Under the pieces are notes generated by a model. It saw only the letters and a program-made list of their open reading frames with translations. It did no database searches and had not been told where the DNA came from. Of a stretch of DNA of 48,165 nucleotides, positions 1-472 are shown piece after piece. Positions within the stretch are counted from its first letter, which is position 1, and each line of letters begins with the position of its first letter. The stretch lies in NCBI GenBank assembly GCA_009781635.1, contig WQXU01000019.1, positions 1-48,165 on the forward strand. The letters are read 5' to 3'. A program made the translations under genes and the position numbers. Origin of the DNA: Treponema sp. (lineage in GTDB: Bacteria; Spirochaetota; Spirochaetia; Treponematales; Breznakiellaceae).

Positions 1-105
1 AAACCCCCTGAAGGTACCAGGAAGACTACCTGGTTGATAGGTTGGAGGTTTAAGCATGGTAACATGTTCAGCCGACCAATACTAATCTACCGTGAGGCTT
101 GACCA
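1..105 (+). rRNA. rrl: 23S ribosomal RNA, 3' end (partial)
   Basis: The first ~105 bases match the conserved 3' end of bacterial 23S rRNA. They include the segment around 'ccgaccaatactaatctacc' and the terminal 'cgtgaggcttgacc' at 91-104. The gene enters from the left edge of the window. The exact mature end is estimated to within a few bases, because it is set by pairing with the 5' end, which lies outside the window. A 5S gene follows on the same strand. Confidence 0.92.
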
Positions 106-147
106 TATTATTGTTCCTTAAATCGTATGCTTAAAAGGCTTCGTATG

Positions 148-268
148 CAGGCATGTGCAAAAATCCCCACAGGCTCCCGGCGGCTGTGGCATTAATTGAC
201 GCACGCTCTGGCGTGACCAGTTAGGACTTCACACCGAGGTCGCCTGCGGTGCTTTTTGCACCTGCCTG
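148..268 (+). other. Multi-hairpin element in the 23S-5S spacer
   Basis: The ~250-base spacer between 23S and 5S contains a long closing stem: 148-163 pairs with 253-268 at 15 of 16 positions (arms caggcatgtgcaaaaa and tttttgcacctgcctg). It encloses three further hairpins: 167-172 with 184-189 (ccacag/ctgtgg), 202-206 with 211-215 (cacgc/gcgtg, loop tctg), and 232-239 with 243-251 (caccgagg/cctgcggtg, one bulge). The fold is therefore cloverleaf-like. It contains no tRNA: there is no T-loop GTTCRA or CCA end. It may be an rRNA-processing structure or an inserted MITE-like palindromic repeat. The sequence alone does not decide between these. Confidence 0.6.
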
Positions 269-356
269 AAAAAGATGTCTATAACGCATACATTTTGGTA
301 ACGCGCGGGGAGGCTTTGGAGACAGAGTTCTTTTTGCTTTTAAAAAGTATTAATTG

Positions 357-472
357 TTTGGTGATTATTGCGGAGGTGGCACACCCGATCCCTTTCCGAA
401 CTCGGAAGTTAAGCCCTCTTGCGCCGATGATACTGCATCTCTAAGGTGCGGGAAAGTAGGTCGTTGCCAAAC
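357..472 (+). rRNA. rrf: 5S ribosomal RNA
   Basis: A 116-base segment carries the 5S hallmarks: 'ggaggtggcacacccgatcc' early, then 'tccgaactcggaagttaagc' (the loop B/C region), and a terminal helix closing TTTGG at 357-361 with CCAAA at 467-471. It lies about 250 bases after the 23S end on the same strand, the normal order of a bacterial rRNA operon. The ends are placed from the terminal helix and may be off by one or two bases. Confidence 0.93.

Follow-up and report, generated by a model that had tools for sequence, protein, structure and literature searches.

Within the 48,165 nucleotides of a Treponema sp. contig analysed here (the window), which begin inside the 3′ end of a 23S rRNA gene, the spacer between the 23S and 5S genes holds a palindrome of 121 nucleotides. 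This raises the question of whether such a structure serves the ribosomal operon, for example in the processing of its transcript, or is foreign to it. The hairpin itself is real, and as the 23S gene stops at position 106 and the 5S gene begins at 357, it lies inside the spacer, where an initial reading of the sequence alone (the sequence-only reading) had placed it (Table 1). The spacer measures 250 bp against 28 bp in the other rRNA operon of the genome, so that most of it is additional sequence, also on either side of the element. The palindrome had been said not to be a tRNA, and indeed the Rfam 15 covariance models gave neither a tRNA nor any other match at 148–268; the sole Rfam signals around copies of the element were a neighbouring tRNA near one of them and sub-threshold matches to the MIR533 palindrome. 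The interpretation we favour, with a probability of about 0.72, is that the element is one copy from a repeat family of a single treponeme genus, whose palindromic units of ~120–150 bp are non-coding, dispersed, non-autonomous and similar in kind to MITEs or REPINs, and that it landed by chance in one of two rRNA operons. It is probably passenger DNA, not ribosome machinery, and it is from the distribution of the copies that we infer movement.

Table 1. Coordinates of the repeat copy, its helices and the neighbouring rRNA features in the window.
Feature	Positions	Strand	Remarks
3′ end of 23S rRNA (context)	1..106	+	
23S–5S spacer, 250 bp	107..356	+	other operon of the genome: 28 bp
Repeat copy (whole palindromic hairpin)	148..268	+	model match spans 148–270
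P1 outer arm, 5′ side	148..163	+	pairs with 253–268, one mismatch
P2 helix, 5′ side	181..188	+	CGG, one bulged base, TGTG
P3 tip hairpin	202..215	+	CACGC, TCTG loop, GCGTG; one of the best-conserved segments
P2 helix, 3′ side	230..236	+	CACA, CCG
P1 outer arm, 3′ side	253..268	+	
5S rRNA (context)	357..472	+	

The closing stem described in the sequence-only reading, 16 bases with one mismatch, was found as described, the two arms being complementary. Folded as RNA, the 121 nt had a predicted energy of −57.2 kcal/mol (z −4.95); folded as DNA, the value was −31.2 (z −4.30). In neither case did any of 200 shuffled sequences fold equally well. The three small hairpins that had been drawn inside this stem as a cloverleaf (167–189, 202–215 and 232–251) are present in the window sequence and appear in the DNA fold, but only the middle one was kept when the 11 copies found in the same genome (see below) were aligned. 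In that alignment 100% of the cells of the middle hairpin were paired, whereas one pair of the first hairpin formed in just 1 of the 11 copies and the third had 57–64% of its cells paired. The first and third hairpins were rejected on these counts and the cloverleaf with them, as the comparison favours a single long bulged hairpin. RNAalifold applied to the 11 copies returned a long outer stem, P1 (17 + 8 pairs), a helix with a bulged base, P2, and a tip hairpin, P3, and this alignment supports a conserved fold in the form of one bulged hairpin built of these three parts. Some copies (L011, L222, L224 and L249) carry an extra hairpin inserted in P3 or beside P2, with the rest of the fold kept.

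A BLAST search of the spacer against its own genome (2.77 Mb in 51 contigs) revealed ten other places in addition to the window (E values down to 5.5e-22), so that 11 copies are spread over nine contigs. A covariance model (A1, R1) built from these copies recovered the same 11, with E values for the others down to 7.2e-30, and otherwise just reverse-strand images of palindromes, which were not counted as copies since they match the same palindrome. The element alone is repeated elsewhere in the genome; the sequence on either side of the window copy is not. The search for further copies that had been proposed therefore yielded ten outside the rRNA operons, all of them intergenic, although a long frame, which we take to be spurious, runs through the L004 copy. 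Their neighbouring genes are unrelated and lie in tandem, convergent and divergent settings, with the element in both orientations, and the own copies have a GC content of 59–68% in flanks of mostly 14–44%. Between dxs and cdaA, the gap is 342 bp in this genome and holds one full and one decayed copy, compared with 18–118 bp in 14 of the 16 loci measured (14 further loci were not measurable); in G018 it is filled by 1310 bp of other sequence. Decayed second copies adjoin two of the intact copies in the same orientation, one in this gap (L162, contig C1) and one on contig C18 near 43137. No convergent pair was found in the own genome, in which the copies are solo apart from the two with a decayed neighbour.

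The second rRNA operon of the genome (contig C13) has the same 23S tail followed by the 28-bp spacer, which lacks the element. Its absence here means that rRNA processing does not require the element; the earlier suggestion of a processing structure is further weakened by the ten copies that lie outside rRNA operons and by a wider check with the model, which located a copy at only 2 of 15 5S loci. The other suggestion made at the outset, of a non-autonomous mobile repeat inserted into the operon, gains support from the 11 scattered copies together with the element-free sister operon. The two rRNA-spacer copies among the 15 loci are that of the window and one in another genome, G011 (contig C164), which also has a second operon (C19) with a 27-bp spacer free of the element. 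Immediately after the 23S gene, all 12 spacers with a 23S end share the stretch GACCATATT, A or G, TTGTTCC, and the element lies beyond this conserved 3′ flank. The window copy is 70% alike to the G011 copy and 74% alike to the non-rRNA copies of its own genome, and neither identity nor the tree supports an orthologous insertion in G011. Because the two copies are 70% alike and are not sisters in the tree, the sequences weakly suggest two independent landings in rRNA spacers as likelier than a single old one. By eye, other long 23S–5S spacers in the genus (128–163 bp, in G020, G010 and G039) hold other inverted repeats, and unrelated inverted repeats lengthen the spacer at L136 398–562 (G039), at L139 upstream of 5S (G042), and at L140 and L141. 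The spacer thus seems to be tolerant of hairpin inserts.

Of the 39 genomes of the genus, 22 were positive for the element with a wider model (R2). Across the phylum, 392 sampled genomes gave matches only in the own genome, under strict filters that took nine candidates per genome, recovered 9 of the 11 own copies and may miss weak relatives. An exact core pattern compared with 84,980 species genomes found 45 stretches, nearly all from Treponema sp. or Spirochaetaceae MAGs, which from their isolate names we take to be of termite-gut origin; one was assigned to Bacteroidales and one to Brevinematales, both on short contigs that are possibly mis-binned. In a tree of 52 copies chosen from the hits, copies group largely by genome, and spread within each lineage is therefore suggested. 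Tandem arrays occur in a many-copy Spirochaetaceae MAG (L128 1–650, L113 70–730, L093 5808–6342 and L110 3697–4076), with a spacing of ~208–299 bp in the first two. In element-rich genomes, copies often lie at the ends of contigs. A copy was also noted at L131 1982–2106; as the IMG/VR contig in question (21 kb) has tail-protein genes, one of them tail fibre J-like, phages may carry the element. The phage and plasmid collections searched gave no match. No description of the repeat appeared in the literature listings searched.

Most copies are solo. Neighbours within 2.5 kb of each other, among the matches listed, were convergent in 13 cases, divergent in none and on the same strand in 10 (the pairs were compiled by hand from those matches, with one copy of the L128 array missing); for 13 against 0 the two-sided binomial p is 0.0002, with pairs that are not independent of one another. 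Where pairs occur in G047 and G042, they combine copies from different subfamilies. One paired unit in G047 (L209) has a 15-bp motif in inverted orientation at its two ends, and a deletion derivative (L247) retains both of these ends; the motif occurs in 18 places in that genome with up to two mismatches, against 6 for a reversed control, and three A/B pairs have ~90 bp between their members. Such ends are what a classical DNA MITE would have, that is, an element moved by terminal inverted repeats that a transposase recognises, with the hairpins internal or subterminal and acting as binding sites or as a shield. We consider this a serious alternative that is nevertheless unlikely. The 15-bp ends were seen in G047 only, and there both together at just two places: they were not found around the own-genome copies or the two G042 pairs, the left end is absent at several G047 copies, and a search for an autonomous partner transposon with the ends 1–3 kb apart found none. 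Furthermore, a role as binding sites leaves unexplained the compensated changes in P1 and P3 among copies of the same genome. No consistent target-site duplication was visible by eye. The relatives are too diverged to offer exact empty sites.

Genes of several kinds lie between or beside copies. In G003 the ACT and PFL genes, which are 0–77 bp apart in 24 other loci, are separated by ~2 kb containing two elements and a gene for a PDDEXK_13 (REase-ARP) nuclease. The others are PDDEXK_2 genes in G020 and G011, a weak CdiA_C match in G020, a ParE-like toxin gene in G011, and DUF433/DUF5615 with a weak CopG antitoxin in G039. A PADLOC scan of nine proteins gave only weak hits, for one protein. It is conceivable, if rather improbable, that all this represents a separate class of mobile DNA, having two different bulged hairpins set head to head as its ends, a varied cargo of nucleases and toxin–antitoxin genes, an enzyme in trans that reads the fold, and arms that drift while remaining complementary.

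The constraint on the fold was quantified in two alignments. Among the 11 own copies, 95.0% of 416 cells in P1–P3 were paired, compared with 78.7 in shuffles; two-sided changes were present in 27 of 38 pairs (10.8 in shuffles), and there were 65 two-sided cells (15.3 in shuffles) and just two one-sided ones. In an independent alignment (A7) of 39 copies, a choice from the hits in many genomes, 98.3% of 468 cells in P2 and P3 were paired, with 37 two-sided cells and a single one-sided cell. Two-sided changes were also present in 9 of 45 pairs among the 12 copies of one G047 subfamily, in which broken pairs were commoner; alignments A5/A6 omit two G047 copies that carry inserts. Because the letters differ among copies of the same genome and yet stay Watson–Crick paired, we infer from these sequences a demand for the fold at the level of DNA, or else template-switch repair, rather than selection on RNA. 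The complementary arms could, on that second account, persist through repair and not through selection for folding. Taken further, this would mean that the palindromes are kept up with no dedicated mover, being copied by template switching and rearrangement during replication, which would fit the near-perfect arms with two-sided changes and the tandem arrays at 208–299 bp. We give this explanation little credence, as it sits poorly with a core common to several species, with conserved P2 and P3, and with the defined head-to-head order.

A transcribed structured RNA under selection as RNA, whether an rRNA maturation signal, a regulator or a ribozyme, would also account for the stable RNA fold, the real covariation and the transcribed position in the rRNA operons of two species. 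It was rejected as a first choice, and we regard it as very unlikely, because G–U cells overall were no commoner than A–C cells in P1/P1b (2 v 5 in A1, 9 v 53 in A3 and 33 v 19 in A4, after removal of two reverse-strand rows of the same palindrome) and because no copy matches an Rfam family. The one-sided cell in 468, the lack of the element in the sister operon, the variety of gene neighbours and the occurrence in both orientations all argue in the same direction.

Genes that might encode the mover were sought in the 39 genomes. One candidate, present in 21 of them when genomes with a match of at least 100 bits are counted, is a tyrosine recombinase of the IntI/XerC-like kind (~400 aa, e.g. 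L284 532–1716), extended at its N terminus by ~100 aa; it occurred in 12 of the 22 genomes with the element and in 9 of the 17 without (Fisher p 1.0). Y1 transposase genes were found in 7 of the 22 and 10 of the 17, respectively, and RAYT/Y1 was rejected as the mover because its presence is not associated with the element. None of 29 recombinase or transposase loci scanned, 25 of them Y1 loci, contained a match to the element. Integron sites related to attC, folded strands that a tyrosine recombinase joins so that the genes between copies would be cassettes, resemble the element in their bulged base, Treponema host and intervening genes (here toxin and nuclease genes, with some same-strand arrays), but this reading is scarcely credible, since none of the 39 genomes had an integrase above the TIGR02249 cut-off, the recombinase that is present does not track the element, and most copies are solo. 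The integron study (PMC3607928) places the conserved triplets of attC, AAC and GTT, in its R boxes, whereas the outer arms of the element vary between copies and its tip is conserved; the same study reports no trace of an integron in T. azotonutricium and T. primitia.

In IS200/IS605-type elements the ends are hairpins recognised as single strands. The likeness to our element is in the hairpin, but at none of the loci scanned did the element adjoin a TnpA gene. REPINs, as presented in their description (PMC3116915), are small non-coding palindromes that are dispersed, form inverted pairs and show compensatory changes in their spacer, and the element has in common with REPINs, or REP sequences with RAYT (Y1), the dispersal of small palindromes, the inverted pairs and the compensatory changes. 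However, REPINs conserve their outer REP parts and vary in the middle, whereas the element does the opposite; its unit is 120–150 bp long, and no linked Y1 (RAYT) gene was found beside it at the 25 Y1 loci. As to an inverted doublet as the unit, the convergent pairs above would fit it, but most copies are solo. ERIC/IRU (RU-1), YPAL (RU-2) and Correia/NEMIS repeats are described in their survey (PMC2229807) as non-coding long stem-loops of ~100–200 bp, mainly intergenic, mostly A+T-rich and mostly with no identified transposase. A short non-coding repeat with 11 copies dispersed between the genes of one genome resembles these MITEs in size, position, stem-loop and lack of coding capacity; it differs in its GC content, and no TA-ended terminal repeat or consistent target duplication came to light. 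We consider the repeat family to be new, and kin in kind to the small palindromic mobile repeats, no named family having passed all of the comparisons.

Under the favoured reading of a dispersed non-autonomous repeat, the element would multiply within each genome as DNA. When single-stranded it would fold into the bulged hairpin, and an enzyme encoded elsewhere and acting in trans would read the folded strand through P2 with its bulged base, the tip of P3 and the stem. Paired copies, in which the left and right ends are elements of different types, could carry whatever lies between them, and the copy in the rRNA spacer would be a passenger tolerated downstream of the conserved 23S flank.

The oddity of this rRNA operon is thereby explained as a passenger, and a searchable repeat family is gained for an uncultured group of bacteria. 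The element is also a clear natural example of DNA in which the letters change freely but base pairing is kept. If it is true that paired units carry toxin and nuclease genes with no transposase of their own, they would represent a route of gene shuffling undescribed in these bacteria.
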